Shown in pieces: positions 4,841 through 29,032 of a stretch of 41,823 nucleotides of DNA. The position numbers were made by a program, and so were the translations under genes. The DNA lies in the IMG/VR virus record IMGVR_UViG_3300046007_008906, positions 1-41,823 of that record; one strand, given 5' to 3'. The notes beneath the pieces are model-generated. The model saw only the letters and a program-made list of their open reading frames with translations. It made no database searches and was not told the origin of the DNA. Numbering within the stretch: the first letter of the stretch is position 1; every line of letters starts with the position of its first letter. Source of the stretch: a virus.

Positions 4841-5824
4841 TTACTTCAAGCCATAAAGCCGACGCACATACCTCGTAAACGCGGCCATCTTTTGAGGGCT
4901 ACCAGAAACATCAATAGCCCGATTTTTGTAATGCCAAGAGGTCGGCGTATGCACCGGATCCACTTTGTCGAACGCGGGATTTTCACCAACGCGCAGCCCC
5001 ATCCTCTGAGCAACCTTGCCCAGCCGCACAACAGTCTTCTGCCCAGCCGCCACGTGCACGTGATTGCTGTGGCCGCCAATAGCGGGAATTCGCGTAGTGC
5101 CCTTCCACGCCCCCTGCGGATCGTAAAACAATTCCTTAATGCCGCTGCCCTTACCCCCGCCCGCGTCAGGCGTGCGAACACTTGTTTGCTTCGGGGCAGG
5201 GTCTGCGGCTGGGGTCGTATCCACTGCTGGCGTCGAACTCGCCAAAGCACTAGCAAGATCCGCGACAGACGCGCGGCCCTGCCGCTTCATCTTCGCGTAA
5301 TTCAAAATAGCGGTCATAGCCTCCGTGTTATCCGCCATCGAAGCAGGGGCTTTGACGCCCCCGGTCGTCGCATCCGACTTCGGGGCGCGCGAAGGCTGAC
5401 CGGAAAAACTGCCGCCTAGCCCACCATAAATAGAACGCAAAGTATTGCCTTTTTCGTAGCTACTCGTAGCCCAGCCACTGTTGGCAATCGCGCTCATCTG
5501 CTTCTCCGGGCTTTGCCCAGCGTACCGAATAATTTTCTTAATGCCAGCGCTCGGGCCGTACCGCTTCCCGCGCAAGAAATCAGCAGTAGCAGCGGCAGCA
5601 CTCTCCGGAGAACGCCAAGTCTTATCCCCAGTCAGGCTCAAATTACCGCTATCGGTATGGCCGATATTCAGCCAGTTATTGTACCCGCGCTTCTCGTAGC
5701 CGCGAGCAGCGCCCCCGTTCATTTCTGAAAACACCCACGCAGCAACCACGCGCTGATTCAGCCCAGTACGGGCCGACAAACTCTTAATGAACTTCTTCTG
5801 GTTATTGGTGAATGAATATGCCAT
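4841..5824 (-). CDS. Virion-associated peptidoglycan hydrolase (glucosaminidase-like + M15-like)
   Basis: A 327-residue two-domain protein. Residues 1-125 look like a lysozyme/glucosaminidase fold: AAWVFSEMNGG with putative catalytic E34, and NWLNIG at 50-55. A Pro/Ala/Thr-rich linker (about 145-225) follows. The C-terminus has GGHSNHVHVA (251-259), then VHTPTSWHYKNRAIDVSG with H298 and D305, the SxH(x)nAxD pattern of M15-like peptidases common in actinophage virion proteins. It sits among internal virion genes rather than with the lysis enzymes. It is therefore probably carried in the particle to open the wall during DNA entry. The start ATG 5824 is preferred over upstream codons because it follows the stop of the 40-aa gene by one base. 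Confidence 0.75.
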   Translation of the reverse strand: MAYSFTNNQKKFIKSLSARTGLNQRVVAAWVFSEMNGGAARGYEKRGYNNWLNIGHTDSGNLSLTGDKTWRSPESAAAATADFLRGKRYGPSAGIKKIIRYAGQSPEKQMSAIANSGWATSSYEKGNTLRSIYGGLGGSFSGQPSRAPKSDATTGGVKAPASMADNTEAMTAILNYAKMKRQGRASVADLASALASSTPAVDTTPAADPAPKQTSVRTPDAGGGKGSGIKELFYDPQGAWKGTTRIPAIGGHSNHVHVAAGQKTVVRLGKVAQRMGLRVGENPAFDKVDPVHTPTSWHYKNRAIDVSGSPQKMAAFTRYVRRLYGLK

Positions 5825-5825
5825 T

Positions 5826-5948
5826 TTAGTTACCCCGACGCCCGGTAAAAGCGTTAAGCTCGTCAGCAAGAGTACGCTTATGCATGCCGCGCTTCTTCTT
5901 AGAATTCTTCGACACCACTTTCACAGGTTGCTTACGTTTCGCCCGCAT
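5826..5948 (-). CDS. Basic microprotein, 40 aa
   Basis: The minus-strand ATG at 5948, with a GTGAGGAAC ribosome site, opens a 40-codon frame starting MRAKRKQPVKVVSKNSKKKR and ending FTGRRGN with TAA at 5826. It fits exactly between the giant virion gene (5 nt away) and the hydrolase gene (1 nt away), which argues that it is real. Strongly basic, with no recognised family. Confidence 0.65.
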   Translation of the reverse strand: MRAKRKQPVKVVSKNSKKKRGMHKRTLADELNAFTGRRGN

Positions 5949-5953: not shown

Positions 5954-8900
5954 TCACTTCTTCAGAGATTCAGTAGTCAAAAGGCCCTTCTTCCGGCGAG
6001 CCTTCTTCTTTTTCTTCTGGCCGGGGCGCTCCTTCTCAAAGTCCTGCGCCGATTCGATGCGCGGCTTGCCCGGGGTACCAATCCACACAGGCCCCAGCAA
6101 TTCGCCAACGTCCTGCTTGGCCGACTTCTGCTGCTCGCGGATGATTTTCTGATTCTTGCGTGCCTTCCGGCGGCTACGAACGTCACGCTGACTATATTTC
6201 ACCGGGTTGGGCGCAAAGAAACTAGAATCGCTTGTCTGCTTGCCGCGCAAGGGACCAAACGGCGTGTTTGGCTCTTTACCCGGAAGGCCGGTCTTTTCCA
6301 GCGCCCGGTAATACGGAGACAAACGGAACATCTGGTTAATTAAAATTTGCAGACGGTCAGCGGCACCGATCTTGGAATCAGTGGGCTTATCCCACGCTGG
6401 GCTACCATCAGAAGTCCACGGCTTCCCGCCAAGCGCGTTACTGCTTTTAGTGATTTGATCCGCAAGTATCGTGAGATACGGCGGGACAAACGTGAACATG
6501 CTACGCGGGTCTAGGCCCTGAAACTCAGGATTAAGGTCATACACGATTTTCTCATTTGTCGGGCCAAGAGCCGCAAATGAAGTAGGATCTTCAGCGTTCG
6601 TAAGCTGCTCACGGCTCGTGCCAAGAAAAGCGCTGTAAAGGTTAAAGAAAGGATTGATACGCGCAACCTCAATGCGAGTATTATCCCCACCAGCCTTGTA
6701 GTAATTTCCAATCTCCCAGTACGGGATATCGGCACCGAAAATCCGACGAAGCTCGTCACGCTGCATTTCGCCCAGCTTCAGCATAATGGCTGAAGTAATC
6801 GGATGCTGCACGGGCATCGTGTAGAACGTCAGCTTCGTGGAGAAACGCAGGAAGCCGTAGAACATCACAAACCTACCTAGAACTCGGCGTTCCCAGTTAG
6901 TGTACGTATTCCAATTTCCCAGAATCGAATCTACGTACTGGGCGTGCTCTTCGATTTTATCCTGCTGCGACAGGAGCTTACGCATCGCTTCTTCAGGCCC
7001 AAGCCCGGTCAGGCTGTCCATTATCTGCGTCTGGATGCGCATGGCCTGCCCCATATCTTCGCCCATCTGGCGGTACGTTTCACGCTTCACGGAGTTATAG
7101 AGAACCGCGCGACGGAACCAGTTATTTTGCGCGTTATCGCCCTTCAGGATCAGCGTCAGCGGATTAGCGTTCGCTCCCTTCCGCCAAAATTCCGTGGTCT
7201 TCAAGCCGCGATAGCCGTTGCTGAGATCATTCAGCGGCTTGGCAAACATGCCGGAATACTGCGCAGCGCCAAGCTTATTCTGCGGGTCGTACCAGCGATG
7301 GATACCGACGTACGGGGAGACCGCTTGCTTGACTTCTTCAGGCAGTTTGTTCCACCAAATCTGCGCCTTAATAATTGACACAGGCCCGGTACCCGACACC
7401 AAAGCGGTAAGCAGGGCATTAGAAGCAAACTGGAACTGGAGCCAAACCGGGTTCGCCAGCAGGATACGCGACACCTTGCCCTGCGCGATTGCAAGCGTAC
7501 GCATCTTCGCGCCGCTAGGCTTCGTAGCCGCGAAGATTTCTTCGTAAGCTGCCTTCGGGATCACCATGAACCCGGAGCGCTCATAATCAGCCGCCGGGGT
7601 ATTACGACCCGGGCCAAGCGCGCGCTCCGCCTCGTACCTAGCAAGATCATCAGGCGTCCACGCAGAATCCGTAAGTGCCGTGTGGACACGAGCCTGCCCG
7701 TCCGGCGTATCCAAATCACTAACCGCGTCGTCCGCAAGCATATTCGCTTCGCGCGTAAGCTTCCGCTTACCGGCCGTAGTCTTCGGATCAATATTGCGCG
7801 TAAACGGATTAGCGGTAATCCCACGCTCTTCAATGAGCGCGTCCTGCACAGCCTTGCGCTCCGCCTCCGCAATCACCTGATCCATTTCCTCTAGCCTGCG
7901 GTTGTAAACCCGCGGATTCCAAATAACAGAATCGTTCGGGTTAACGTCCCCAGCTTCAATCGCGTCAAGAATCTGGGTGGCGGTCATGTTTCGGTAAGTC
8001 CGCGAACCAACCATATCCGCAACATCCGCAACCTTATTGTAATTGTAACGACGCTTAATGTTCCCCATCACGCCACGAAGGAACACCTCCGGATCCGTGT
8101 CCGAAGCACCGTAATCAATCAGCCGGAATTTAAGCTGCTTATCGGGAAGTACCGCCTGCGTGCCACCAACCGCACGATCAGCATTCGGGCGACGAGGACG
8201 ACGCTCACCACGGAAAAATCCTGCCTGCGCCAGCCCAAGCTCACCACGCTTCTCTTCAACCGCCTTAATGTACGCTTCCTTTTCCCCGCGAGTAGGCTTC
8301 AGCGGATCCTCAGCGAAATCTTCAAGATGCACGCCAACCATCCGGCCTTGCGCGCCAATCTCTGCCATGCGCATCTTCAAGCGATCCCCATTAAGGGTCG
8401 GGTCCATCAAACCCTTCTCGCGCGCAAGCCCGCGCATGCGCTCCGAAAATTCTGCTAGCCGGGGAGTAAACGCATTATCAGCATCCCGCAGCAGGCGCTC
8501 AATGTTCGGGATTTCATCGAACACATGCCACATATCGCCGCTAATATCGCCAAATTCACTCTTGCCCTGCACCATTTCCTCGCGCATATTCAGGATGCGA
8601 GTGCGCCACTCCGGCAGCAACGTGCGGGCCTGCTCCGGGGTTCGGATACCAAAACGCAGCGAGTAGAAAAATGCTTCGCGCTCAGTCTCAGAAAGCTCCG
8701 CCAGTTCCCTGCGGAACTTTCTCTCAATTTCACCCTGCTCAATACGCATCGCCATAAACGCAGCGCCACTAGCTCGCGCGATATTTCTGCGCACCTGACC
8801 ATCGAACCCAAACCAGCGATTGCTGAACAGCATCGGGACGACCTGCTCCTGCAAGCCGCGCCTACCAGCGCTCATCAGCTTAGGCGGGTTAGCTTCAAGC

Positions 8901-11900
8901 GCGTCTGCCTCAGCGTCAAGACGAGCCTCTGCCCTGACCGCGCGTGTCTGCGCCCGACCCTGAGCTTCCGTAAACCGACCCGGAAGCCCCTCAGCCCTAA
9001 TCTTTGGCCGCACCGTTTTTGGTGAAGTAACTCGGAAAACCGGAACGCCATCCCATGTAGCGTTATCGCGCTGAGTACGGGTCAGCTTGCCCTCAGCGTA
9101 AGCGTTGCGAACCTGCCGATTGTGATTTTCTATAGCTTCATCGTAAAAGCGCCGGAATTCTATCTCTTCATCTGGACGCAGTTCTCGGAAACGACGATCA
9201 CCATTAAATTCATCTACGAGACTGTCAACGCTCTGGAATCCCCGAAGCTCCAAAACGCTATCCGGGGCAAGCACAACCTCGTTCTCAGCGGTCGCCTCTC
9301 CGCGAAAAGCACGCTGATCCGTTGGGCTGCCGCGCATCGTATCGCCGTTACCCTCGTCAACGCTAACTTTCTGCGCAGCCCTAGTCAGCAATAGCTTCGT
9401 ATCGGAAGGCACCTCAATAATGATCGCGGTCCCCTGCTCCTTCGTGACCCGACCCTTAATAAATCCGTTAAACTCAGCACCCGCCCTGCCCTCCCCAAGA
9501 GAAGCGCTGATAAATCCTTCGTCTTGCAGGCGCACAGAACCCGTCTTCCTCGCAAACGTACTCGCGTCTATCTCGCTAAGTAGTACCTTTTCCCCGGTAG
9601 CGGGATCAATAAACTGAGCATTCGCAGGCAGAGTACGCTTGACAAAAATAGACTCCCCCGGCTTAGACAGGGGAACATCGTCACCGACAACGAACGATTC
9701 TGTCCCGCGGAATTTCTTAAGATTGAACAGCCCAGCGAGCCTTGCCCACTGCTGCGCGATCTCGCGCCCAGTCAGCAGGCCACTCAGGTACCGGCGATCA
9801 AACTGCACAATAAATTCGGGGTCAATATCGCGCAATTGGCGAGCGTGAAGGTTCACCGCACCGTAAAACGGCCAATCATCTTGATAATCCTTAAATGCCT
9901 GCCTACTAAGTCGCTTCGGCCCAAACTCCCCGCCCGTGCTCCCAACAATTGCGTTAAAATCGTCCGAAAATCCACGAGTGTTATTGCTGCGTGGGGACGG
10001 TTCCTCCGGATTAAAACGAGCGCCCGGACCAATCTGATCCCCAAGCGCAGTACGCCGACCAACATCCGCCACCTGCTGATCCGTCAGAGCATCCGCCAAC
10101 TCACGCTGACCTTCGGGCAACGCATCCTGCGCGGCCTTACGCTGCCCCTGCACCCGAAGCTGCTCATCAAGATCAGCGTCAATCCCCCGAAGCGCGTCAA
10201 GCGTCACCTGATTACGACGAGCATCCTTACGCTTTGTATTAAGCGCGCTGCCACTACTTAAACTGTCAGGGTCTAGCAGCGTGTCGAAAACAAGTTTCGC
10301 GTCCGAAATTGCGCCCTTCTTCGGATAAAGCGCGCGCTGCCTCCTAGCGGCACGCTCCAGCAAATAAAGCTCATTGACGCCAACCCGAAGATCGTCAATG
10401 AGACTCAAATCTTCGTTGCTGGTTTCAATAATGTTACGCTCACGCGCCAGCTTCTTCGCTGCCGCGCGCGCTTCAGGATCCTTACTTTTACGGCCAAGCT
10501 TGATAGCCTGATCCAAAACCTCTTCAACTTGCTTCTCATAAATTGGGAGAAGCTGGTCGGATCGGTCCAGCAAATCAGCTTGTTTGAGGCGGGTAAGAAA
10601 CTTTGCAGTATCTGCAAAAGGAGTTTGCCCAGCCGCTTGAAACTGTTCCTGCTGGTAAAAGCCTCTACGGCCCCGCAGAAACTCTTGCATAATTTCTGCC
10701 TGCCGGACAGGAAGCTCTACTTCAATAGACTTACGCCCAGCGGCTACTTGCTGCGCCTTGCGACCGCCAGAGCGAATGGTTTTTTCGGTAAATGGCCTGC
10801 GACCCAAAGGTGCCATCCCAGAGCGAGCCATTTCTACTTCAATGGTGTCCAGCATCTGAGCCACCGCTTCAGCGCGCGGATCCCCAGAAGCGCGATAAAC
10901 ATTCACTATTTCGGTGTTAAGGCCGTCGCCAGCAGCAGCGGGACGCCGAACGCCAAGCTCTTCCCACGCCCGATGCGTCGTGTTAAATTCTCTGGAAATT
11001 CGATTAGCGGCAGCGGGGGAGATTTTCACGCGCACCGTGCCCTCACGCGGCTTAATATCCTCCGGGCGTACTCCACGAACAGGAGCGTTAATATCCATCG
11101 TGTCGCCAAGCTGCGCGCCACGTTCTTCCGCCATGCGAATCCGAACAGGGGCATCCGGGGTGCGCTTAATCGCTTCACTCTCAGCGTACCTGCGTAGATC
11201 CTCTCCCGTGCGACCATCGCGGCGGCCCTGCTCCATCGCCTCCGCCTTCGCCTTATCGTAGGCTTCTTTTCGCGCGCGCTGCGACTTAATCTTCAAACGA
11301 CCACGAGCATAATCAACGCCAAACTTCGCGGTGTTACTGAAAATATTGTTGGTTGGGCGAAGACGAACCTGCTTGCCGCCCTTATTAATGAAACGTTCGC
11401 CACCAGCGTCCCTTCCGCCTACGGTCGTACGCCGCGCCACACCAGACACAAGCTGCGCCGTGCGCCCAGCACGAGCAGGAGTCCCACCAGCGCGAGAAAT
11501 TTCATTAGCTGCTGCCGCCGCCCTAGCAACCCTGCCGCTAGTCGCCGCAGCCTGAAGACCAGCACCAACGCCCTTACCGGCCACAGTAAGCACAGCGAAC
11601 GAATCCAGCACCTCCGCAGCAACGCCCTCCCTCTCCAGACGCTTACGGAACTCCTTGTCCTTACCCTGCATGAGCGCGCCATAACGACGCGAGTAATCCT
11701 TCTTGATCTGCTCCCAAACCGTTTCCGGACCCTGATCGGCGGCCATGTAAATACCAGCAGGCACGCTCTTAATCATTTCCGCGTAATCCTTCACAAGACG
11801 CGGAATCTGTTCACCCGGATTATTCGCAACCGCCTCAGCCGAATACGCCGGAACCTTGTAAACCAGCGACACGCCCCGGTCCAGCTTGTCCGCGCTCGGG

Positions 11901-13324
11901 CCGCTAGTGCGCACACCACTGCTCCCAATCTCTATGCGGCTCTTAGGCGAAGCCCCAAGCTGCTCCTTCTTAGCTTCATAAAGAAACTTGCCAGCGCCAG
12001 CGGCCACCTTCCCAGCACCAGCCAGCGCTTTCCCGGTATTACTAAAGCCCTTCGCAACACCCTTCGGAAGCTTACCGGGCGCACCAAAATCACCAATTTT
12101 AGCAGGATCACTAGCATCCCGCACATTTTTGGTAAGCAGGCCCCCCACCGCCTTGCCTGCATTAAGGATATCTTTACTGTCCAGCTTTACATCAATTAGA
12201 GGCTTACGGTCCGCGCGCTTCTTCGCAAGCGCACGCTCACGCCTAAGCCGCGCCTCATACTGAGTGCGAGTCTCACCAGAAAGCACCCCCTGCCGGGTCA
12301 GCCTGTCCGCAGCACGAGCACGACGCTCCAACGAAACCTTCCGGCTCCGCAGAATTTTCACATCCTTAGCGGCCTTCTTCTGCTCCTGCTTGGCCGCATA
12401 CTTCATCTGGCGAGCCTGCTGCTTATACGCATACGGCTTCCGCCCCCGCGGCTTCGGAAGCGAAGCAGAAGGACGAAGAACCTTCGGAGTCTTCAGCGGC
12501 TTTTTCTCAGCGGCTTTAGCGCGCTCTTCAATCGTAGGCTTCGGCTTGTAGCCCTTGCGAGTCGGAAGAATTTGCGGATTAAGAAGATTATTGGCCTGCT
12601 TGACCTTCGCCTGCGTAACCGGGCGAGTAACCTCATCCAAACGCTTCTGCGCAGCGCGAATCTGAGGATCGCTAGATTTACGATTAAGAGTCGAAAGAGT
12701 AGGCGTAGCGGCACCCGGCACCTTAATCTGATTCCCGCTCTTCTTCCCGGTCTTACGATCAAACCCGGGGGCCAAAAGCTGCGGCTTCGTCTTGTCCCTA
12801 GCCGCTGGCTCCGCGCCCAGCGCAGCCTTACTCCGCTTCTCCGAAACACCCCGACGAATACCAGCCTTAGTATTCTGAAGCTCAACATTAACCTTCTTAC
12901 CCGTCACCGAACGGATAAGCCGCTCCTGCCGCTTCTCTTCCTTCTGAAGCGCCCGGTAAACCTCACCACCAAGCGAACGCGACTTCAGCCGCGCCTTTTC
13001 GTACTCAATCGTGCCCGGCTTATAGCGCCCCACACGATACGCCTGCCCTGAAGGAGAAAGCTTCCGCGGATTAGGTGAACTACGAATTACGGTACGGCGA
13101 GACTCCTTCGACTTGCCCGGCAGCAAAGCCTTAGACTTCGCGGACGGCAGAGGCTTGAAAACAGGGGAACGCTTCGGCCTAGACCGGCTCGGGACAACCT
13201 TCCCGCCCTTGCGGACAGGACGAAACCCCGGAGCGACAACGCCGCGCCCCGGAGTCCTCTTAGGAGTCTGAATTTTCTGCGCGCCAACCTTCTTAGCGCG
13301 AGGCTGCGACCGATAACGAGGCAT
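5954..13324 (-). CDS. Giant 2456-aa virion/ejection protein with apparent ADP-ribosyltransferase domain
   Basis: The longest gene, running without interruption. Residues 1-400 are extremely Lys/Arg-rich and probably bind DNA. Glycine/alanine-rich amphipathic stretches (about 415-450, 570-600) follow. Around 1140-1365 the motifs of an R-S-E ADP-ribosyltransferase appear in order: FRGTESF (R1206), EGFISASL (S1273, S1275), a GTAIIIEVP strand, and ENEVVLAP (E1347-x-E1349). Residues 1950-2200 contain semi-hydrophobic segments and an ERRVLGRFVMFYGF motif like the C-terminal parts of large phage polyvalent proteins. The C-terminus is a KKKKKARRKK tail. It follows two coiled-coil internal proteins and precedes a wall hydrolase, the T7 gp14-15-16-like order of ejected proteins. 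Injection into the host with the genome is inferred, not shown. Confidence 0.85.
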   Translation of the reverse strand: MPRYRSQPRAKKVGAQKIQTPKRTPGRGVVAPGFRPVRKGGKVVPSRSRPKRSPVFKPLPSAKSKALLPGKSKESRRTVIRSSPNPRKLSPSGQAYRVGRYKPGTIEYEKARLKSRSLGGEVYRALQKEEKRQERLIRSVTGKKVNVELQNTKAGIRRGVSEKRSKAALGAEPAARDKTKPQLLAPGFDRKTGKKSGNQIKVPGAATPTLSTLNRKSSDPQIRAAQKRLDEVTRPVTQAKVKQANNLLNPQILPTRKGYKPKPTIEERAKAAEKKPLKTPKVLRPSASLPKPRGRKPYAYKQQARQMKYAAKQEQKKAAKDVKILRSRKVSLERRARAADRLTRQGVLSGETRTQYEARLRRERALAKKRADRKPLIDVKLDSKDILNAGKAVGGLLTKNVRDASDPAKIGDFGAPGKLPKGVAKGFSNTGKALAGAGKVAAGAGKFLYEAKKEQLGASPKSRIEIGSSGVRTSGPSADKLDRGVSLVYKVPAYSAEAVANNPGEQIPRLVKDYAEMIKSVPAGIYMAADQGPETVWEQIKKDYSRRYGALMQGKDKEFRKRLEREGVAAEVLDSFAVLTVAGKGVGAGLQAAATSGRVARAAAAANEISRAGGTPARAGRTAQLVSGVARRTTVGGRDAGGERFINKGGKQVRLRPTNNIFSNTAKFGVDYARGRLKIKSQRARKEAYDKAKAEAMEQGRRDGRTGEDLRRYAESEAIKRTPDAPVRIRMAEERGAQLGDTMDINAPVRGVRPEDIKPREGTVRVKISPAAANRISREFNTTHRAWEELGVRRPAAAGDGLNTEIVNVYRASGDPRAEAVAQMLDTIEVEMARSGMAPLGRRPFTEKTIRSGGRKAQQVAAGRKSIEVELPVRQAEIMQEFLRGRRGFYQQEQFQAAGQTPFADTAKFLTRLKQADLLDRSDQLLPIYEKQVEEVLDQAIKLGRKSKDPEARAAAKKLARERNIIETSNEDLSLIDDLRVGVNELYLLERAARRQRALYPKKGAISDAKLVFDTLLDPDSLSSGSALNTKRKDARRNQVTLDALRGIDADLDEQLRVQGQRKAAQDALPEGQRELADALTDQQVADVGRRTALGDQIGPGARFNPEEPSPRSNNTRGFSDDFNAIVGSTGGEFGPKRLSRQAFKDYQDDWPFYGAVNLHARQLRDIDPEFIVQFDRRYLSGLLTGREIAQQWARLAGLFNLKKFRGTESFVVGDDVPLSKPGESIFVKRTLPANAQFIDPATGEKVLLSEIDASTFARKTGSVRLQDEGFISASLGEGRAGAEFNGFIKGRVTKEQGTAIIIEVPSDTKLLLTRAAQKVSVDEGNGDTMRGSPTDQRAFRGEATAENEVVLAPDSVLELRGFQSVDSLVDEFNGDRRFRELRPDEEIEFRRFYDEAIENHNRQVRNAYAEGKLTRTQRDNATWDGVPVFRVTSPKTVRPKIRAEGLPGRFTEAQGRAQTRAVRAEARLDAEADALEANPPKLMSAGRRGLQEQVVPMLFSNRWFGFDGQVRRNIARASGAAFMAMRIEQGEIERKFRRELAELSETEREAFFYSLRFGIRTPEQARTLLPEWRTRILNMREEMVQGKSEFGDISGDMWHVFDEIPNIERLLRDADNAFTPRLAEFSERMRGLAREKGLMDPTLNGDRLKMRMAEIGAQGRMVGVHLEDFAEDPLKPTRGEKEAYIKAVEEKRGELGLAQAGFFRGERRPRRPNADRAVGGTQAVLPDKQLKFRLIDYGASDTDPEVFLRGVMGNIKRRYNYNKVADVADMVGSRTYRNMTATQILDAIEAGDVNPNDSVIWNPRVYNRRLEEMDQVIAEAERKAVQDALIEERGITANPFTRNIDPKTTAGKRKLTREANMLADDAVSDLDTPDGQARVHTALTDSAWTPDDLARYEAERALGPGRNTPAADYERSGFMVIPKAAYEEIFAATKPSGAKMRTLAIAQGKVSRILLANPVWLQFQFASNALLTALVSGTGPVSIIKAQIWWNKLPEEVKQAVSPYVGIHRWYDPQNKLGAAQYSGMFAKPLNDLSNGYRGLKTTEFWRKGANANPLTLILKGDNAQNNWFRRAVLYNSVKRETYRQMGEDMGQAMRIQTQIMDSLTGLGPEEAMRKLLSQQDKIEEHAQYVDSILGNWNTYTNWERRVLGRFVMFYGFLRFSTKLTFYTMPVQHPITSAIMLKLGEMQRDELRRIFGADIPYWEIGNYYKAGGDNTRIEVARINPFFNLYSAFLGTSREQLTNAEDPTSFAALGPTNEKIVYDLNPEFQGLDPRSMFTFVPPYLTILADQITKSSNALGGKPWTSDGSPAWDKPTDSKIGAADRLQILINQMFRLSPYYRALEKTGLPGKEPNTPFGPLRGKQTSDSSFFAPNPVKYSQRDVRSRRKARKNQKIIREQQKSAKQDVGELLGPVWIGTPGKPRIESAQDFEKERPGQKKKKKARRKKGLLTTESLKK

Positions 13325-14572
13325 CTACTTCAACCGCGGGAAATCGCTCATCTTGTAACCCTGAGCACGAAGTCTCCTGCGATTAGTAGCACTCACCTTT
13401 CCACGGTAAATAAGGTCATTAATAATATCAATCGCTAGCGGCTCGTAAGCCCCATCGCGGAGATAACGCTGCCGAACCTTGCCATGCGACCAGCCCTGCT
13501 TCTTCTTATCCCTAATCTTGCCGACCAGCGTATCCAGCCGAAGGCTGAAATCCTGAATATCGGACGCTGAAGCGCGCGGACGTTTACTCTTACTAGACCC
13601 GCCGCCCCCGCCATTGGCAGCCTTAGAAGCGCGAGTATTTGCGTCCTGCTGCTTAATTCCAAGCTCCTGAAGCGCAAGCTGATACATACGATCCTTCTGC
13701 TTCGCATCCTGACTAAGCTTCGACTTCGCCAAAGCATTTGCAGAAAGCGTTCTCTGAAGAGCCGCCTCAACCGTAGCCTTCTCAATAACCTGACTCTGAG
13801 CGTTCGCAACCGCCTTATCCAAAATCTTCTGGCGGAAATCAGCCTTATTCCTATTCAGATCATTAGACTTACGATTAAGGTCCACATTTGCAGACAAATA
13901 ACGAGCAAGGGCATCGGCCTGCTGCGCGCCAGCACCAGCCTCATTCGCGCCCATCATCGTAGAAGCACTACGCGCACGCTCCTGCGCCGCCAGAGCCTGA
14001 GAACGAAGCACCGCCTCACGAGAATTTGCGGCCTGATCGGCAGCCGTCTTATACGCTGCCCCAGCATCAGGGCCACCAAGCCCAAGATCACTAGCGCGCT
14101 TAGAAAGCGCATCAGCCTGAGCCTGATCCTGCGAATTAGAAGCCTGACGCTGCGCGTCAATCTGCCCCACATTAGCCGTATTAAAAGTACGGTTCTGCTC
14201 ATCAATGCGGGCCTGCGCGTCACGAATACCCTGCTGATAACGCCCAAACCACTGGGTGTCGCGCTCCTGATTAGCTTGAAGCTGCGTTCGCTGACGCGCC
14301 ATTTCCGCATCAGTATCCCGATACTGAAGGCCCTCTTCATAGGCCATCATGTTCTTCAGCTTCCCAAGCGTCATGCCGGAATCCGGCACAATCTCCATCG
14401 CGTCAAGGGCCGCCCTCGCCTTATTCTCAGTGTTCTTCTTACGGGTAGCCTGCATTTCAGCAGGAAGAAAACGGGTAGGCAACTGCGCCCGCAAACGCGG
14501 GTTAGCGAGATACCGATTAAGCTGGGCCTGCGAAAATTTTTGAACCTTGCTGGCCGGAAGACGCTTCGCCAT
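13325..14572 (-). CDS. Internal virion (ejection) protein, coiled-coil, 415 aa
   Basis: A 415-residue Gln/Ala/Arg-rich helical protein with long heptad-like regions (about 90-300), a GGGGGSSKSKRPR linker near 325-340, and a compact basic C-terminal domain ending in RLRAQGYKMSDFPRLK. It starts at an ATG directly after the stop of the gene before it and ends directly before the giant gene. Composition and position match internal core/ejection proteins of short-tailed phages. No sequence family recognised with certainty. Confidence 0.7.
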   Translation of the reverse strand: MAKRLPASKVQKFSQAQLNRYLANPRLRAQLPTRFLPAEMQATRKKNTENKARAALDAMEIVPDSGMTLGKLKNMMAYEEGLQYRDTDAEMARQRTQLQANQERDTQWFGRYQQGIRDAQARIDEQNRTFNTANVGQIDAQRQASNSQDQAQADALSKRASDLGLGGPDAGAAYKTAADQAANSREAVLRSQALAAQERARSASTMMGANEAGAGAQQADALARYLSANVDLNRKSNDLNRNKADFRQKILDKAVANAQSQVIEKATVEAALQRTLSANALAKSKLSQDAKQKDRMYQLALQELGIKQQDANTRASKAANGGGGGSSKSKRPRASASDIQDFSLRLDTLVGKIRDKKKQGWSHGKVRQRYLRDGAYEPLAIDIINDLIYRGKVSATNRRRLRAQGYKMSDFPRLK

Positions 14573-15364
14573 TTACCTTTTCCCCTTCTTCTTCTTGGGC
14601 TTCTTAGCCTTAGGCTTCTGAGCGTCAAGAATAGTTTTCAAGAAATCCTGCATAGCGCTAGGCGGCGGAGTAGGATCAGTCGGGTTATCCTGCTCCCCAA
14701 ACGTAGGAGCATCCTCGGCCATCCGGCGCTGCATAAGCTGATCCTGAAGATCGGCCATTTTTGTTTCGTAATCAAGGTTCGCGGCATTCTCCTGCGCAAG
14801 AAAATCTGCTCTACGAGCAGCAAAATCCTGCTCCAAACCCTTTTTACTTTGATTAAAACTGTTAGCGTCGGACTGCAACGCTGCCAAATAAGCGCCGCTC
14901 GTCAAAGACCCGCGATTAGCGTAACCCTGCGCAGAACCCTTCTGCATCTGCATGTACGACTTATTCAAAAGAGCCGCACGCGAATACGGATTCGTAACAT
15001 CCACGTTCTCCGCAAACGTACCAGTGTTCGGGTCAAACCCATACTGCTCGTTAAGCGCAGTACGCTGGGCAGCAATCGAAGCAAGCTGGTTATCCCTACC
15101 CGTAAGCGCAGCCCCCGAATTAATCGTGTAAGAACGATCTGGGGCAGGATTCCCGTAATCTTTGGGGGGAGGCGGAGCGGCGGGGGGCGTAGCGGGCGGC
15201 GCAGCAGGAGGATTTGCGGCGGCAGCGACAGCAGCCCCCGCATTCGGGGGCATCGTGGAAGAGGTGCCAAAAGGATCTCCGGGGTTAACCCACGAAGCAC
15301 CAGACGGCTTTTTATACTTATTTTTCCAAAGCTGCTTAGACTTCCACTTTGGCACTCTCGCCAT
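14573..15364 (-). CDS. Internal virion protein, Pro/Ala-rich then helical, 263 aa
   Basis: A basic N-terminus (MARVPKWKSKQLWKNKYKK) is followed by a Pro/Ala-rich linker with repeated APPATPP-type runs (about 45-70). A helical region follows, with GYANRGSLTSGAYLAALQSDA and Gln/Ala/Glu heptads, and then a Lys-rich tail ending KPKKKKGKR. The start has a GAGGAT ribosome site. It directly abuts the 415-aa internal protein gene, so the pair with the giant protein probably forms the ejected core. The GSAQGYANRG...SGAYLAAL segment is seen in many phage internal proteins of this type. Confidence 0.65.
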   Translation of the reverse strand: MARVPKWKSKQLWKNKYKKPSGASWVNPGDPFGTSSTMPPNAGAAVAAAANPPAAPPATPPAAPPPPKDYGNPAPDRSYTINSGAALTGRDNQLASIAAQRTALNEQYGFDPNTGTFAENVDVTNPYSRAALLNKSYMQMQKGSAQGYANRGSLTSGAYLAALQSDANSFNQSKKGLEQDFAARRADFLAQENAANLDYETKMADLQDQLMQRRMAEDAPTFGEQDNPTDPTPPPSAMQDFLKTILDAQKPKAKKPKKKKGKR

Positions 15365-15381
15365 AATCTAATCCTCGTAAT

Positions 15382-16062
15382 TTATGTTAAACGCACAGGC
15401 ATAATCCGCCCGTAGAGATTTTGGACAGTTAATGTTGTGTTGTTATGCCAAACCTGTAGGCGAAACTCCAACACATTACCTGCCGTTAACGCCACGCGAA
15501 CTGTTTTATTAAGCTGCGTGTGCATGTAGTAAGCCCCAAAGAAAACCTGCGGAAGCGCCATTTGCTCCACGTTGGCAACGCTCGTAGTCGTGCCGTTAAT
15601 CCACAAACCAACCCAGTTAATTTGCGCAATCGTCTGGGTAGTCTGCGTCATGGAACCGCTAATCGTCACATCGTAAACGCCGGTTGCCGGTACCGTCAGC
15701 GTAGGCGCTCCCGCAATTAAATGTGTCGCAGGGGTGCTGAAAATATTCGTTGCGCAAACGGTCGTGCGATTTGTAACATCCTGTACGACCGCCGGGTTCC
15801 CACCTAAAACCTGCCACTTCTGGGCGGTTGCGGCACCAATAGAGTATCGGCAAGTCCAGACAACGCCATCGTTATCGTTCGACGCCCAGCCAGTAGGGCG
15901 ATAATGAACTACCTGCCCGTCAACCGGAGAGGCAGGAAGTGCCGTGACCAGCGGCACCTTATCGGGAACAATTTGTCCCAGCGCCTCAAAATTAGCTTGA
16001 ACCTTAAAAGGATCAAGTTCGCCAGCCCCGCCACGAACATCCGCATTAGGAAGCGCCGTCAT
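15382..16062 (-). CDS. Tail fibre/appendage protein, 226 aa
   Basis: The N-terminal 80 residues (DPFKVQANFEALGQIVPDK...HYRPTGWASNDNDGVVWTCRY) resemble the anchoring part of phage fibre-tip proteins. The remainder is Thr/Val/Asn-rich beta structure ending RIMPVRLT, like a C1q/TNF-type jelly roll (VPATGVYDVTISGSM, GNVLEFRLQVWHN). It is coupled to the collar gene by a TAATGA overlap. Host-surface binding is likely but inferred from composition and location. Confidence 0.65.
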   Translation of the reverse strand: MTALPNADVRGGAGELDPFKVQANFEALGQIVPDKVPLVTALPASPVDGQVVHYRPTGWASNDNDGVVWTCRYSIGAATAQKWQVLGGNPAVVQDVTNRTTVCATNIFSTPATHLIAGAPTLTVPATGVYDVTISGSMTQTTQTIAQINWVGLWINGTTTSVANVEQMALPQVFFGAYYMHTQLNKTVRVALTAGNVLEFRLQVWHNNTTLTVQNLYGRIMPVRLT

Positions 16063-16832
16063 TACGCGATACGGATAATCTTGTTAATGACCTGATACGG
16101 CTGCCGGTTATCGTGCGAAGAACCGCCACCCGTGTTATTGTCAGTCGCTCCCGAACCAGTCGTGGTGACGGTGTGATTGTGAGCGCCATCTGTAGAAGTA
16201 AACTGACCAACGGACACAACGCTTCCAAAACTTGCGGTAAACACAGCCCCAGTCGCGTTATTCTTTAGCACATCACTGACGGCGTGGCTGTGAGCGCCGC
16301 CAGTAGAAGTCGTGCCGCTCGCGGAAAAATTCGTGATCGTGTGATTGTGAGCCGGAATCTGGGCGGTCGTTAGCGTCGTGCTAGCCGATCCTCCCGTATT
16401 CCCACGTGCATCATTATCCGGCAGGCGGGCAGCATCCCCCTGAGCGGTCCCCATCGTGTCCGGGCCAACAGACACGCGGCCACGGAGATCCGGAACATTA
16501 AACGTGGTCAGGGAATCCCCAGCGCCGTACGTAGTGCCCATGATCGTAAAGAGGCTCGCGTAGGTAGTGCGGCTAATCGCGCGACCATCAGCGAGAATCC
16601 ACTTACCAGCAACCGGATCGCTAGACCCACCATAATCCAGCAAAGCACCAATCGGCGCAAGCAGATCAATAACCGCGCTACTAAGCTCGGCAACGCCAAT
16701 AGACCCGTCCGTAATGTTAGCGGCGTCAATGCTATTGACACCAGTAACCAAAGCGGTCAGGTTAGCGTTAAGGTTATTAACATTTTCTGGCTGCCCAGCG
16801 GTCAGCGTAAAGGGAAGAGAAACAAGTGCCAT
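16062..16832 (-). CDS. Phage tail-collar domain fibre protein with HxH repeats
   Basis: A 256-residue protein. After a helical N-terminus, residues about 60-135 carry the tail-collar signature: YGGSSDP, GKWILADGRAISRTTYASLF and FNVPDLRGRVSVGPD. The C-terminal part has repeated His motifs (AHNHTI, AHSHAV, AHNHTV) in glycine/threonine-rich linkers. Similar HxH motifs bind iron in the trimeric needle of T4 gp37. It would be a trimeric receptor-binding or short-fibre protein. The start overlaps the preceding stop as TAATG. Confidence 0.85.
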   Translation of the reverse strand: MALVSLPFTLTAGQPENVNNLNANLTALVTGVNSIDAANITDGSIGVAELSSAVIDLLAPIGALLDYGGSSDPVAGKWILADGRAISRTTYASLFTIMGTTYGAGDSLTTFNVPDLRGRVSVGPDTMGTAQGDAARLPDNDARGNTGGSASTTLTTAQIPAHNHTITNFSASGTTSTGGAHSHAVSDVLKNNATGAVFTASFGSVVSVGQFTSTDGAHNHTVTTTGSGATDNNTGGGSSHDNRQPYQVINKIIRIA

Positions 16833-18673
16833 TATTTATCCAGTTTTGTTACGCTCGGAACCCGCGATTCCCGAACTCTGTGAACAATACGATTAACGGT
16901 CCATGCGCCCGGCGTGGTGTCGTCACTAGAAGATATTTCAATACTAAAATTGATACCCCGGACGGAATTTCTAGTTAAAGTGAAGTTTGACGCCTGCCCG
17001 GCACTCCACACATCATTCGGGTAATTAGGGTCCGGTCCCCAAGTGTCGGAACCGATATCGCCGCCAGCCCAAACATCCGTTCCCCTACCCAGATCCACGG
17101 TTGCTGCGTTTCTAGCTCCTTCAAGGTTACGAGCAATAGCGTAACGGAATTTTCCAAGCCCCCAAACCTGAGACTCACGAATCGTTTTATCCACAGAAGA
17201 ACCGTAGTCAAGAAACCCGTACTTCACGCGAGCAGTAAACGCAGCGCCAGCATCGGTCGTGGCAGAGGCCAACAGCCTCCCAAAAATCTGGTTGCCGGTA
17301 GCCCTAGCAAACACCAGAGACCCACCAATAGTGGAAAGCTGAATAGGCGACAACGCGGCGCATGGAATATTCCAAATACTCCACCAGCCAAACCGGGGGT
17401 CAAACACCAAAAGCGTATTATTGTCCGAAGAACTCCCGGTAGGAAGAGCAACAAAAATCTGTTGCCGGTAAAACGTCATACGTGCCTTGCTGATCGCACC
17501 GTAATTTACGGCGTTACCGCCATAAAGAAGCGGTAGGTCACCAGTGAACAGGGGATCTAGCAGGCTGGAGACAAGCTGCGGAGGTCCGCCATCCGTGCGG
17601 TAAATGCCTTTCTCCGAAAGAAAATAAACGCCGTCCGGAGCCACGCAAAGAGACTGCGGGGCAGCCAGCCCAACACCCGCGTCAATAGTCCGGAAGTCAA
17701 AGTTTGGGACGCCAAGACTGTTACCGCCAAGCGAAGTCCCATAAAAGACAAAAAAGCGTGTTTTCTTAAACACAAAAACATATGAACCCCAAGTAACCAT
17801 TCCCATGATCTCTTCGCCATCGCCGGGCGTAAGATCTACGTACTCGTAGCCGTCCCAAGCCAACGGGTTTGTCGCGCTGGAAAACCGAACCGTGTTTTTG
17901 TTTTGCCCACCCTGATTAGGGTTCACAGCCGGAGCGTAACGAGCGTTAACAAGGCGACTGTCCCACGGCGTAACTGCGCAAAACATTCCTGTAGGGTTTG
18001 GCGCGCTGTTCGTAATAGACCACGTAGGGGTGCTCCACGATGGGGACGCGCCCGTGTTATTCCACACGCGAAGCGGATCCGTGCCGTTCGACGCCCAAAG
18101 CGTCGGGACCGCCCTCGTGTTCCCCGAAGTGGTACCACCACCAAACCTAGTGAAAAAATTCGGAGAAGCGCTAATCCCAGAAGTCAGCGGGGTTCCAACA
18201 ACCGCCCCGGCAGAATTACGAACTTCAAGCCTACGGTTTGTGCCGTCCGTCATAGACACGGCCATTTGCCACGCCGACCCATCAGTGTACGAAGCCATAT
18301 TGTCCGCACGATAGGCAGCGAGGGCGTACACGGCAGTATCGTCAGCCGCAGCGGGAGCGCCCGTGCAGCCAGTGAAGGTAGTGGCCGTTTTCCCAGTGTA
18401 CGCGACCACCGAAGAGCCAATCTGGAGCGAACCAGCCGACTCAAAAGAAGAAGTCGAATCTACGGTAATCGTAGAAGCCCCGGCAGTAATAGCGCCATTC
18501 AAAGCCGTAGAAACATTAAAAATATCGTAGCCGGGGCGAGACTTAACTGCCCCGCGCTCCGTAAACGTCACATTAAGAAGATCGTACGCCTGACCGGGTT
18601 CAAGTTCATCCGCCTGATCGCGGAGATTAATACCACCACCAAAACCCGTGACAGGAACGCTCCCGTACGCCAT
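16832..18673 (-). CDS. Tail nozzle / stabilisation protein (T7 gp12 / P22 gp10-like)
   Basis: A 613-residue beta-rich protein. Its start GFGGGINLRDQADELEPGQA, then NVTFTERGAVKSRPGY, is the hallmark of short-tail hub proteins that plug and extend the portal. The remainder is propeller-like, with repeated hydrophobic/Gly/Asp blades (for example DGVYFLSEKGIYRTDGGPPQ) and ends in a VHRVRESRVPSVTKLDK tail. The ATG at 18673 overlaps the adaptor stop as TAATG; an upstream TTG in frame is not needed. With the adaptor before it, this forms the short tail. Confidence 0.8.
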   Translation of the reverse strand: MAYGSVPVTGFGGGINLRDQADELEPGQAYDLLNVTFTERGAVKSRPGYDIFNVSTALNGAITAGASTITVDSTSSFESAGSLQIGSSVVAYTGKTATTFTGCTGAPAAADDTAVYALAAYRADNMASYTDGSAWQMAVSMTDGTNRRLEVRNSAGAVVGTPLTSGISASPNFFTRFGGGTTSGNTRAVPTLWASNGTDPLRVWNNTGASPSWSTPTWSITNSAPNPTGMFCAVTPWDSRLVNARYAPAVNPNQGGQNKNTVRFSSATNPLAWDGYEYVDLTPGDGEEIMGMVTWGSYVFVFKKTRFFVFYGTSLGGNSLGVPNFDFRTIDAGVGLAAPQSLCVAPDGVYFLSEKGIYRTDGGPPQLVSSLLDPLFTGDLPLLYGGNAVNYGAISKARMTFYRQQIFVALPTGSSSDNNTLLVFDPRFGWWSIWNIPCAALSPIQLSTIGGSLVFARATGNQIFGRLLASATTDAGAAFTARVKYGFLDYGSSVDKTIRESQVWGLGKFRYAIARNLEGARNAATVDLGRGTDVWAGGDIGSDTWGPDPNYPNDVWSAGQASNFTLTRNSVRGINFSIEISSSDDTTPGAWTVNRIVHRVRESRVPSVTKLDK

Positions 18674-19296
18674 TAAAGTGACGCCCAATCGTGGCTATAG
18701 CCGTACGCAACAATCGAATCCGGATCCTGATGCTGCTGATACAGGTAATGCTCGCGCATAGACCCAATTAGCGTGTCGGCATCGGCGCGCACCACCTGCG
18801 CCATTTCCGGATTATCAGAATCAATGTACGCTCTACCGCAAGCAAAATCCACAATTGCGTAACGATAACGAGCGGGAATAAGCGGAGTATCCGTACCGTT
18901 GACGAGATCCGTCGGTACTTTAATGTACCTCACCGAAAGCGCGTCAGTGTTCCCCGGATAAGTGTTAATTGTGGTGCCGTCCGAAAGGTAAGCGTAAAGA
19001 GCGTTACCCGCCGCAGACTGGTCCGGGTACGCCTCGTTAAGCGTGCGGCGATCAATAAAACCAAGATTCGTCTGGGTCGTGGTGTCCGTAAGCGACAGAA
19101 TCGTTCGCATATCCGCGATAGTCAGCGGAGAAGCCCCAGTGGCCGTAGCCTCCAGAAACGGCCAATCATCCAGTCCACAAATTTCCTGATACGACTGGTT
19201 GATCCACTGCTTTGCGCGGGTTTCCCCCGCGCCGCTGTCATTTAGGTAATCAAACCCTCGTGCATAAAATTCAGTGAGAAGTTGTTGAAAAGTCAC
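18673..19296 (-). CDS. Head-tail adaptor (T7 gp11 / P22 gp4-like)
   Basis: A 207-residue protein starting with a GTG that overlaps the upstream stop as GTGA. The N-terminal FYARGFDYLNDSGAGETRAKQWINQSYQEICGLDDWPFL pattern (described by its key W-I-N-x-x-Y...W-P-F residues) is typical of adaptors that dock onto the portal ring of podoviruses. The C-terminal part carries an ARYRYAIVDFACGRAY helix. It sits immediately before the nozzle gene, as in T7- and P22-like genomes. Confidence 0.75.
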   Translation of the reverse strand: MTFQQLLTEFYARGFDYLNDSGAGETRAKQWINQSYQEICGLDDWPFLEATATGASPLTIADMRTILSLTDTTTQTNLGFIDRRTLNEAYPDQSAAGNALYAYLSDGTTINTYPGNTDALSVRYIKVPTDLVNGTDTPLIPARYRYAIVDFACGRAYIDSDNPEMAQVVRADADTLIGSMREHYLYQQHQDPDSIVAYGYSHDWASL

Positions 19297-19855: not shown

Positions 19856-21064
19856 CTAGGTGAGACCCGACAGCTTGGCGTGGCTGTTACGCCTACGGCA
19901 ACCAAGTTGAATTCTCACAGACAGCTTACCAGCGTAGGAGTCGGTACCCTGTACCCACTCCAGCGTCTGTCCGCCGGTTACGCGAGACTGCCAATAGGGA
20001 TCTCCTGCCGAGACAGAGAGAACATCCCCAATGGTGAGGAAGAAAACATCCTCATTCTTGCAGTCCGGAACGGCGTAGAGCTTCACGCCGTTAATATCAA
20101 CGCCGTCAACGGAACCAACCGTCAGCGGAGCGTCGTTAGCGAACCGGACCTGAGCCTGAGCCAGAGTGTACGCGACACGCTGCTGCTTCAGACCAGTGAC
20201 CACGAAATCCGCGGCCTTGCCAGTCTTCTGGGCAATCTTCTGGTTCTGCTGATAAAGCAGAGACAGAGTGAGAGCCTGCGAAGTGGAATCCACACCGGCA
20301 GCCTTCCACTGAGACTGCGTGGCGGGATCAATCCCACCCAGCACCTCAGAAGTGCTGACGATCTTGTGGAGTCCGTTCATTTCGTATGAGGTCGAACCAC
20401 TACGGGCACCCTTCAGCGTCACAAAATGCGACGAGGTGGTGCTGACAGCCGAACCCGAAACGGTGATCGTGCTGTTGGCGAGGTCGGTAGCGGTAATCGA
20501 AACACCGGCCGCAACAGCGGTCGGGTTAGCCGAAGTACCGATATCAACCACGGCCCCAACGTCCAGCCAACCGCGCTCAATGGCGTTAAAACCACTGGTC
20601 GTGTTAAGCTGCACGGTAGTGGAGCTAGAGGTGGTACCACACTGAGCGATCTGGCCGGAACCGTCACCGAAAATCTGACGGGACAGGTTGCGGTTGAGAT
20701 CGTTCACAGCGCCAGAGACTTCCTCATCCACGACCGACGCGACCGCCAGCGCGTCACCGCGCGTCTGGTCAATAGCCGAACCCTGAATGCGGATCTGCTG
20801 GTGCTGGTTGGTGTACGACCACTGGGCCTGAGCATATGCCTGCTCGCCAGCGTCGTTAAGTGAGGTCGGGCTAGAAGAAGTAGCAGACCATCCCCAGTTG
20901 CGTCCCACGTGAATGGGAGTCAGGGCATACTCGCCCATCTGGGTATTCTTGAGCTTCTTCGCGCGATCAAGGATAGGGTTATCCTGATACAACTGCTCTG
21001 CGATTCGCTCTTCGGTCCACGTTTCCTTCAGCGCGGCCTGAATCGTACTGACAGTAGCTGCCAT
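19856..21064 (-). CDS. Major capsid protein (HK97-fold)
   Basis: A 402-residue protein in the canonical place after the scaffold gene. The N-terminal EERIAEQLYQDNPILDRAKKL helix and the NWGWSATS...AYAQAQWSYTNQHQQIRIQGSAIDQ region resemble capsid proteins of phages with P22-type portals. A beta insertion near 165-235 contains RGWLDVGAVVDIG. The ATG at 21064 has an AGAAAGGA ribosome site. A strong terminator follows directly, as for a highly expressed gene. The C-terminus ends with a basic GCRRRNSHAK stretch that is somewhat unusual. Confidence 0.85.
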   Translation of the reverse strand: MAATVSTIQAALKETWTEERIAEQLYQDNPILDRAKKLKNTQMGEYALTPIHVGRNWGWSATSSSPTSLNDAGEQAYAQAQWSYTNQHQQIRIQGSAIDQTRGDALAVASVVDEEVSGAVNDLNRNLSRQIFGDGSGQIAQCGTTSSSTTVQLNTTSGFNAIERGWLDVGAVVDIGTSANPTAVAAGVSITATDLANSTITVSGSAVSTTSSHFVTLKGARSGSTSYEMNGLHKIVSTSEVLGGIDPATQSQWKAAGVDSTSQALTLSLLYQQNQKIAQKTGKAADFVVTGLKQQRVAYTLAQAQVRFANDAPLTVGSVDGVDINGVKLYAVPDCKNEDVFFLTIGDVLSVSAGDPYWQSRVTGGQTLEWVQGTDSYAGKLSVRIQLGCRRRNSHAKLSGLT

Positions 21065-21098
21065 GTTAGAAACAGTCCTTTCTTAGGAACTATGGAAT

Positions 21099-21854
21099 TT
21101 ACTCACTATCGTTGGCTTCGATCAGGGCTGCCATCCGACGACGACGCTCATCTTCATTTCTGAAGTCGAACTTCTCATCGGCTGCGGACCCTTGAAGCGG
21201 CTGCCGTGGAGCCTTCTTAGAACCAATCCAATCCTTCTGCCGCTTACCGAAAAGCTCATTGAGCATTTCCTGCGCAGCGGCAATCTGGGGAAGGCCATCG
21301 GGGGTTAGATCCAGAGTCGCGGCAATACTAAGAACTGCCTGTTGCTCTGTCTCATCCTGAATTCCCAGACGATCCATTTCACCTTCGGTGAAAGTTTCGA
21401 TCTCCTGTAGAATTTCCCTCTCCTGCTGGGTCTGCTTATAGCTTTCCCATTCGGCAGTAAGCTGGTCAACACGGGGATCACTGAAGGAAAAATCATCCTC
21501 TTCTTCAGAGAAATCATTTCCGGCAGGGTTGTCCTCTGCGTCGGCCTCAAAACCGGCAGCGGTGAGGTACGTATCCTCACCGACAAACTCGGCAAGCTGG
21601 CGAAGCGCTTGTTCGCGCGTATAGTCGTCCTGAAGCGCACTCACAAACTCCGTTGCCGCCTCTGCTTCCTTACGAAGCTCGGCAAGCTCCTGAGTTTTGC
21701 GCGTATAATCCGCCTGCATAGACTTGTACCGGGCTTCAAGCTCCGGCGGCAAATCATCAGCGGAAGTGAACGACGAATCGCTTGTCCCAACGCCAGTGTC
21801 AGGGGATGCGATATTTTCGTCCGACTGGGCCTCAATGGGCTGTTCGGAATCCAT
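21099..21854 (-). CDS. Scaffolding protein
   Basis: A 251-residue very acidic, helical protein with no Cys. The ELEARYKSMQADYTRKTQELAELR coiled coil lies near residues 37-65, followed by an acidic stretch EEEDDFSF and a basic C-terminus RNEDERRRRMAALIEAND. This build, with a C-terminal helix that contacts capsid, and the location between portal and capsid genes fit a scaffold that directs procapsid assembly and then leaves. The start has a TAAGGAG ribosome site. Confidence 0.8.
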   Translation of the reverse strand: MDSEQPIEAQSDENIASPDTGVGTSDSSFTSADDLPPELEARYKSMQADYTRKTQELAELRKEAEAATEFVSALQDDYTREQALRQLAEFVGEDTYLTAAGFEADAEDNPAGNDFSEEEDDFSFSDPRVDQLTAEWESYKQTQQEREILQEIETFTEGEMDRLGIQDETEQQAVLSIAATLDLTPDGLPQIAAAQEMLNELFGKRQKDWIGSKKAPRQPLQGSAADEKFDFRNEDERRRRMAALIEANDSE

Positions 21855-22047
21855 CTACTACTCCTTAATAACGACGACTGCCCTTTTGGCTTGGTCGCCT
21901 ATTTCCCAACCCCCCAAAAGGGGGAAGTTTTAAGACACGAGCTATCCGGGCTTTTCTCCCGTGTCGGGGGCTATCTGTCACGGGCCACATAGGCTCTTGC
22001 CGCGCGGCGCGGACCCCCACGCGCCCGAAGGCGCGTTGATAAATTTG
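21855..22047 (-). other. Gap between portal and scaffold genes with small hairpins
   Basis: This 193-nt gap is the only sizeable break in the head genes. On the minus strand, just after the portal stop, CGCGCC-TTCG-GGCGCG (22020-22036 region) forms a tight stem followed by TGGGGGT, so it would be a poor terminator. Closer to the scaffold start is CCCCC-TTTT-GGGGG near 21910-21925. A leftward promoter for scaffold and capsid could lie here, but I see no convincing -35/-10 pair. Confidence 0.4.
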
Positions 22048-24024: not shown

Positions 24025-24284
24025 TAGCCCTCCATCTGGGTACGGTAATTATTAAAATCTTCATCATCGTCAAATTCCACATAATGCTTAGGAATTGACT
24101 GATCCTCCTGTTCACGCTGGGCATGCTGGGCCACCGCGGTCGGGGGATCCTGAATTCTTTGCAGCATTCTTTCGCGCTCCATGCGCTGCTGCTCACGATC
24201 CTTAGCAAGCAGTGAAGTAAAAGCGTACTGCTGATAGGCGATAACCGCGATAGCTACAAAAAGAGCAACCGCTAGAAAAATCAT
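24024..24284 (-). CDS. Single-span membrane protein, 86 aa
   Basis: The start at ATG 24284 overlaps the upstream stop as TGATG, which I prefer to a TTG 18 nt earlier. Residues 1-20 are a strong transmembrane helix (IFLAVALFVAIAVIAY). A charged Arg/Glu/Gln helix and an acidic FDDDEDFNNY tail follow. It resembles a spanin-like or Rz-like layout only in outline. Its position between portal and head-decoration genes, away from the lysis cassette, makes the role unclear. Confidence 0.65.
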   Translation of the reverse strand: MIFLAVALFVAIAVIAYQQYAFTSLLAKDREQQRMERERMLQRIQDPPTAVAQHAQREQEDQSIPKHYVEFDDDEDFNNYRTQMEG

Positions 24285-24742
24285 CAGTACGCGCCGAGCC
24301 AAGCAGCCTTCAAAGAGACAGTCGCGTTAAGATCGCCGCCAGAATTCTGGTACATGGTCACCGATACGTAATCCGAAGTACCGGAAGCGTAATGAATAGC
24401 GGCAGCGCCGTGATTAGGCCCAAAAAATCCGCTAAAGTTGTCGTTTAGCTCGCCGGTAAATGCGGAACCGTTCAAAGCAATAACCAAATTTCGGTAGCCG
24501 GTACCGTTCGCGGCCCAGCTAGAGAAAGCCTGAACAACCCAAACCCCGGAACGCCGGAGAGTAATCCGGTCGTTCGTCAGGTCAGCAAGGGCGCTCCCGC
24601 ACGTGGTTGCGCCATTATCGGCGGTAGTGGAGGTCAGGTTCGCGGTCGTGAAACTGTTATTCGGAATTGCCGTAGCCGACTGCGTAAGATGAGCAAACGG
24701 GACAGGAACACCGCGGGGATTGCGCTCTACTTGAATTTGCAT
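24284..24742 (-). CDS. Beta-sandwich virion protein, 152 aa
   Basis: A 152-residue Asn/Thr/Ser/Gly-rich protein with a C1q/TNF-like jelly-roll pattern (RITLRRSGVWVVQAFSSW, a GYRNLVIALNG strand, and YVSVTMYQNSGGDLNATV ending KAAWLGAY). It is similar in style to the second half of the fibre protein at 15382-16062. Located among head genes, it is probably a capsid decoration or head fibre. It is coupled to its neighbours by TGATG overlaps on both sides. Confidence 0.6.
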   Translation of the reverse strand: MQIQVERNPRGVPVPFAHLTQSATAIPNNSFTTANLTSTTADNGATTCGSALADLTNDRITLRRSGVWVVQAFSSWAANGTGYRNLVIALNGSAFTGELNDNFSGFFGPNHGAAAIHYASGTSDYVSVTMYQNSGGDLNATVSLKAAWLGAY

Positions 24743-29010: not shown

Positions 29011-29032
29011 TATGCCCCCTTCAGGGGGCATA
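29011..29032. promoter_or_regulatory. Palindrome overlapping the -35 zone of the AAA+ promoter
   Basis: TATGCCCCCT and AGGGGGCATA are perfect 10-bp inverted arms with only TC between them. The palindrome ends eight bases before the TGCTATCAT promoter at 29041, so a protein bound here would block RNA polymerase. It could also form an RNA hairpin in transcripts arriving from upstream, but no T run follows. Confidence 0.6.

Follow-up and report, generated by a model that had tools for sequence, protein, structure and literature searches.

The giant late protein encoded in the window (the whole 41,823-nucleotide stretch of virus record IMGVR_UViG_3300046007_008906 that was analyzed) appears to carry, in its variable middle region, a diverged ADP-ribosyltransferase (ART) with the R-S-E motifs of the Alt/VIP2 (PF03496)-like clade, and this domain would be packaged, ejected and act in an NAD+-dependent manner on a host target. 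We place the probability of this reading, taken as a whole, at about 0.62. That residues ~1138-1375 form an ART domain is in itself highly likely, and that this domain would be an active enzyme delivered at entry is, in our estimate, somewhat better than an even bet.

An initial annotation of the same DNA had pointed to three ART motifs within this protein, and the ORF, its coordinates and the order of the motifs agree with what we find. The motifs start at residues 1205 (FRGTESF, with R1206), 1270 (GFISAS, with S1273), 1301 (IIIEVP) and 1347 (ENEVVLAP, with E1347/E1349), so that the R-S-E order is kept. The giant and its parts are arranged as follows.

5954..13324 (-): giant protein that hosts the ART, 2456 aa, an uninterrupted ORF
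12125..13324 (-): residues 1-400, the N-terminal part, which is strongly basic (net charge ~ +80)
8882..11266 (-): residues 687-1481 (795 aa), the middle region that varies; the equivalent in the nearest relative (L002) is 166 aa
9200..9913 (-): very probable ART domain, residues ~1138-1375, with the motif blocks, a 13.2-bit profile match and a model matching ARTs only
9839..9898 (-): N-terminal helix block AFKDYQDDWPFYGAVNLHAR, residues 1143-1162, with the Alt/VIP2-type Y..Y..(I/V)N..(L/A)R signature
9707..9709 (-): R1206 of the FRGT motif, probably the catalytic strand-1 Arg, with R1230 as the alternative
9575..9688 (-): additional stretch (1213-1250, ~38 aa) running from strand 1 to the helix before the S motif, absent from typical relatives
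9500..9517 (-): GFISAS, S motif (S1273)
9407..9424 (-): IIIEVP, conserved core strand
9263..9286 (-): ENEVVLAP, ExE motif (E1347, E1349)
6029..8881 (-): conserved C-terminal core of the giant, residues 1482-2432, with an ERrvl.RF..FYgF segment common to the giants of L002, L017 and L018

Moreover, there is a fourth block that the initial annotation did not mention. Alt/VIP2-type ARTs carry an A..Y..Y..IN..LR helix some 40-50 residues before the catalytic arginine, and this helix signature is present in the window domain upstream of strand 1, 44 residues ahead of R1206. Its sequence, AFKDYQDDWPFYGAVNLHAR, aligns gap-free to RLYQEDPNMWVATNYRLR of an ART in another giant phage protein (L087).

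Judged from the alignments, S1273 and E1349 are well placed as predicted ART catalytic residues. The arginine named in the initial annotation is the element of the ART reading that turned out to vary with the alignment. FRGTESF, which holds R1206, matches VYRGTESF of L088, and pairwise alignment places R1206 on the YRG of both L088 and L089 with each of the three gap settings tried (3/3); other alignment sets choose R1230 (FVKRTLP) or place the YRG column on an Arg-free stretch, and thus the choice between the two residues depends on the homologues aligned. In our judgment, at roughly three to one, the catalytic arginine is probably R1206 rather than R1230. The distance from R1206 to S1273 is 67 residues, compared with 20-30 in the relatives, and its simplest reading would be an additional segment of about 38 residues inserted at 1213-1250.

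These same features bear on the possibility that the domain descends from an ART and no longer works as a transferase, being either a degenerate or structural remnant or a module that only binds NAD+ or nucleic acid. The extra 38 aa that follow strand 1 ahead of the S motif, the SAS in place of STS, the uncertain arginine and the extreme divergence would all be in keeping with such a remnant. However, the S, the ExE and a good FRGT have all been retained, and T4 ModA, which is annotated as an active enzyme, likewise has SAS. We therefore regard a loss of transferase activity as unlikely.

It could also be argued that the domain is not an ART at all, and that a pattern-seeking reader picked R-S-E-like words that arose by chance in another fold. 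The database searches, all negative, speak for this view. The ART domain found no match in Pfam, PHROGs, NCBIfam or PDB sequences, and BLAST with the domain, including tblastn, found nothing in phages, plasmids, viral contigs or genomes. The comparison with PF03496, which the initial annotation had proposed as a check, gave no match even at an E value of 10, PF03496 likewise found nothing in the phage's own genome, and because the score lies below the curated Pfam cut-off we do not claim formal membership in this family. Similarly, the domain did not rise above decoys with profiles of T4-type Alt or Mod alone, nor when its single-sequence HMM was compared, also by HHalign, with Alt or Mod profiles. 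If the ART assignment is correct, none of the standard annotation libraries picks the domain up, which suggests that counts of such payloads are too low.

The ordered motifs are, on the other side, unlikely to have a chance origin, as far as can be judged from sequence. When the window's proteins were shuffled 2000 times, the strict ordered R-S-E pattern turned up in none of the shuffles (0/2000) and a wider version in 19. Across 148,003 aa of other phage proteins, the wider pattern matched the Alt proteins of T4 and of phage S16, L052 and L054 and nothing else, all four being ARTs, with L052 and L054 (MuF- or large-protein ARTs) having entered this background through a motif search; the helix-block pattern also matched ARTs only. 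All these patterns were composed after the window had been seen, and the counts are supporting observations rather than clean probabilities. At the DNA level, a three-motif pattern with the window's own spacing gave four matches, all due to chance, and a looser pattern gave 25, two of which were true ARTs.

A DNA pattern typical of R-S-E ARTs retrieved 26 more viral contigs and L052, and both members tested in Pfam were PF03496 ARTs. The clade profile comprises 17 phage R-S-E ARTs, with the window left out, and recovers T4 Alt at 1.9e-18 and both ModA and ModB at ~1e-5, indicating that it represents the clade. Against this profile the window domain scores 13.2 bits, first among 1,067 shuffles and tiles, with an E value of 0.0034 over 1,504 real protein tiles, where the next non-ART tile, L067 aside, scores 5.2; when single members are dropped from the profile, the domain stays at 12.2-14.9 bits. 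The match consists of three collinear pieces: the helix block, the S motif with the core strand, and the ExE strand. However, L067, a non-ART ORF selected for its S motif, reaches 15.4 bits with the same profile, and thus 13 bits alone is not proof. Likewise, the whole 2456-aa protein scores only 6.2 bits, which makes the profile evidence moderate rather than overwhelming.

Structure modeling with AlphaFold, a further check proposed in the initial annotation, pointed to an ART only when ART rows were present in the alignment. From the single sequence, the model has a pLDDT of 36, no ART match and no meaning. With a thin alignment of 12 ART rows, most of which cover the S-to-E part only, it reaches a pLDDT of 52 and a pTM of 0.46, the best-supported elements being the S-motif, IIIEVP and ExE strands. 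All of the top 28 PDB matches of this model are ARTs (best E 0.005, probability 0.97), unrelated folds come up only at E > 1, and the strand order is ART-like; the VIA Z is 7.4 over 155 residues, in the tool's middling range. The extra segment at 1213-1250 is modeled as short strands with low confidence. Because ART rows were supplied to the model, the result means that the sequence is compatible with an ART fold and is no proof of that fold.

Weighing these results together, the negative searches and the equally high score of the motif-selected L067 are set against a fourth block detected without help from the initial annotation, the collinearity of the three profile hits, the absence of chance matches in 148,003 aa and a model that, at low confidence, matches ARTs only. 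A chance assembly of R-S-E-like words in some other fold is in our view quite improbable.

With the ART reading preferred, the next issue is the protein that carries it, for which the surrounding late genes are informative.

4841..5869 (-): gene directly downstream of the giant (342 aa), with a match to a PHROG tape-measure family in its C-terminal part
within 13325..18688 (-): upstream late genes, comprising two putative internal proteins of 415 and 263 aa and a 226-aa protein without match
16062-16832 (-): tail fiber
16832-18688 (-): nozzle/structural protein
19856..27206 (-): head module
19856-21064 (-): major capsid
22048-24024 (-): portal
25716-27206 (-): large terminase

The counterpart of the 342-aa gene in L002 resembles, read by eye, a cell-wall hydrolase. 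The resulting order, terminase-portal-capsid-tail-internal proteins-giant-wall hydrolase, is that of Microbacterium phage Shocker and of Podoviridae sp. ctEqG8, which has a giant at the same gene position and encodes WhiB factors. From this likeness, the phage is probably a podovirus that infects an actinobacterium. In Shocker, a cultured phage, the syntenic giant is gp37 (L102:23449-28680), 1743 aa and annotated as hypothetical, and it could serve as a laboratory model. Outside the late genes, an AAA ATPase part at window 28915-30624 (+) matches a PHROG annotated as porphyrin biosynthesis (CobS-like).

The initial annotation had described the giant as an ejected virion protein of the gp16 kind. 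Its position fits that description, being that of a late gene after the tail genes, with giants at the same place in related podoviruses; by gene order we infer a large internal/ejection protein of an actinobacterial-type podovirus, which would be packaged and ejected. The giant has no Pfam or PHROG match to the T7 gp16 or LPD38-type internal protein families, and a dedicated LPD38 search gave no signal in the giant with the controls equally silent. Polyvalent proteins (Iyer 2017) join two or more unrelated effector domains in one giant that is injected; in the window giant, the ART is the single enzymatic domain that can be recognized, and the remainder is without a family match. The basic N-terminal part also occurs in the giants of L002, L017 and L018, and not in Shocker gp37 or ctEqG8.

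Comparison with L002, the nearest relative (terminase identity 86%), places the ART in the part of the giant that varies. The 1696-aa giant of L002 shares 54% identity with that of the window over the C-terminal 950 aa and 45% over the N-terminal 686 aa, and since both flanks are in frame with L002, misassembly is argued against. Between them, the 795-aa middle of the window and the 166-aa middle of L002, which holds no ART, have no significant similarity, so that the L002 region is not supported as a shortened relative of the window's. Moreover, ART motifs or a profile match were found in none of the five comparable giants (L002, L017, L018, Shocker gp37 and ctEqG8; L017 is cut by the contig end). 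Its absence from the nearest relative and the lack of a match in the four other syntenic giants are as expected of a swappable payload. In the same collection, L013 (contig G002, 16,026 bases) encodes the same terminase and residues 1-518 of the giant at 100% identity, and ends before the ART. It is tempting to speculate, albeit tentatively, that the middle of the giant is an exchangeable payload slot in actinobacterial podoviruses, filled here by an active Alt-like ART that would modify a host protein, perhaps RNA polymerase, during DNA entry.

We envisage the following sequence of events. The giant would enter the particle together with the genome, by way of its basic N-terminus and its conserved C-terminal core, and would leave the virion with the DNA, taking the enzyme along into the host. 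Once inside, R1206, S1273 and E1347/E1349 would bind NAD+ and pass ADP-ribose on to a macromolecule of the host. ExE-motif ARTs often modify arginine, and therefore the acceptor would most likely be an arginine of a host protein, as for T4 Alt, also of the ExE type, and RNA polymerase. This ADP-ribosylation would favor the first steps of infection. A real ART with another role (for instance within the cell that produces the phage, on the phage's own proteins or DNA, or versus nucleotide-based defense) is conceivable, since delivery and target are predicted and ARTs serve many roles in conflicts (PMC9503650), but it is very improbable for a late structural gene located where ejected internal proteins are encoded, a place in which early or defense genes are unusual.

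Injected ARTs are already known, and what is particular to the window is the combination of an R-S-E ART, a giant internal protein and a podovirus, which so far was seen in a single lineage. If true, R-S-E ARTs would gain a carrier not previously described for them, and the injection of ADP-ribosylating enzymes would be extended to a new vehicle, the giant internal protein of actinobacterial podoviruses, and to the ART clade placed by the main survey only outside giants of this kind. Moreover, giants at one locus with and without the ART would offer a natural comparison for the contribution of an ejected enzyme at entry.

Several known systems share part of this arrangement. T4 Alt is packaged and injected, and ADP-ribosylates host RNA polymerase (PMC5512222). 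Together with ModA and ModB (R-S-E, Alt/VIP2 clade, PF03496), it arranges its elements like the window domain, with the helix block first, followed by R, S-x-S, strand and ExE; the window domain has no significant direct sequence match to Alt or Mod. However, T4 Alt stands as a head protein of its own in a myovirus, whereas the window ART is a domain within a giant.

According to the initial annotation, no common instance of an ART within a podovirus ejection protein was known to it; such a case is in fact published, as Roseovarius Plymouth podovirus 1 has an ART in its N4-like virion RNA polymerase (CBX87992.1; PMC5512222), and VIP2-MuF proteins are published for actinophages (PMC7302621). 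The Roseovarius phage protein resembles the case we infer for the window in that its ART is part of a giant multidomain protein which a podovirus ejects; it differs in that its ART has an H-Y-D active site and belongs to another ART clade, and in its carrier, an RNA polymerase that also has peptidase domains. ARTs are the commonest protein-modifying domain of polyvalent proteins, and the main survey reported the clade of the window's ART only outside giant polyvalent proteins (PMC5512222). One giant that we observed, a phage protein with a length of 2795 aa or more (L087:1-8385, minus strand; L100 is a relative), combines a UvrD-type helicase with two R-S-E ARTs (PF03496, 1e-30), a ParB-like stretch and two Nudix domains; it looks like a polyvalent protein with Alt/VIP2-clade ARTs, contrary to that statement. 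Small stand-alone R-S-E ARTs (ORFs of ~150-210 aa), nearly unchanged, were also seen in L078-L083, L086, L091, L092, L096 and L101.

In actinophages, Bogota gene 9 and Marky gene 10 of Streptomyces phages (L071:1-886; L072:1-802) likewise hold an ART in a large protein, of ~1,110-1,190 aa, but there the ART is C-terminal and on a different carrier, whereas that of the window is internal. Fusions between MuF and Alt/VIP2-clade ARTs have been described (PMC9503650), and Microbacterium phages have VIP2-MuF fusions, with a VIP2 part in Percival gene 4 that its homologue in Floof is without (PMC7302621). Beside these, we noted an 869-aa protein (L088:169-2778) with two tandem R-S-E ARTs and a C-terminal part resembling MuF head proteins. 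The VIP2-MuF proteins (Percival gene 4; Goodman and Johann) and the MuF-ART of L052 are like the window in fusing an R-S-E ART to an actinophage virion protein, and they differ in the carrier, which is a MuF minor head protein in the VIP2-MuF fusions and a giant internal podovirus protein in the window.
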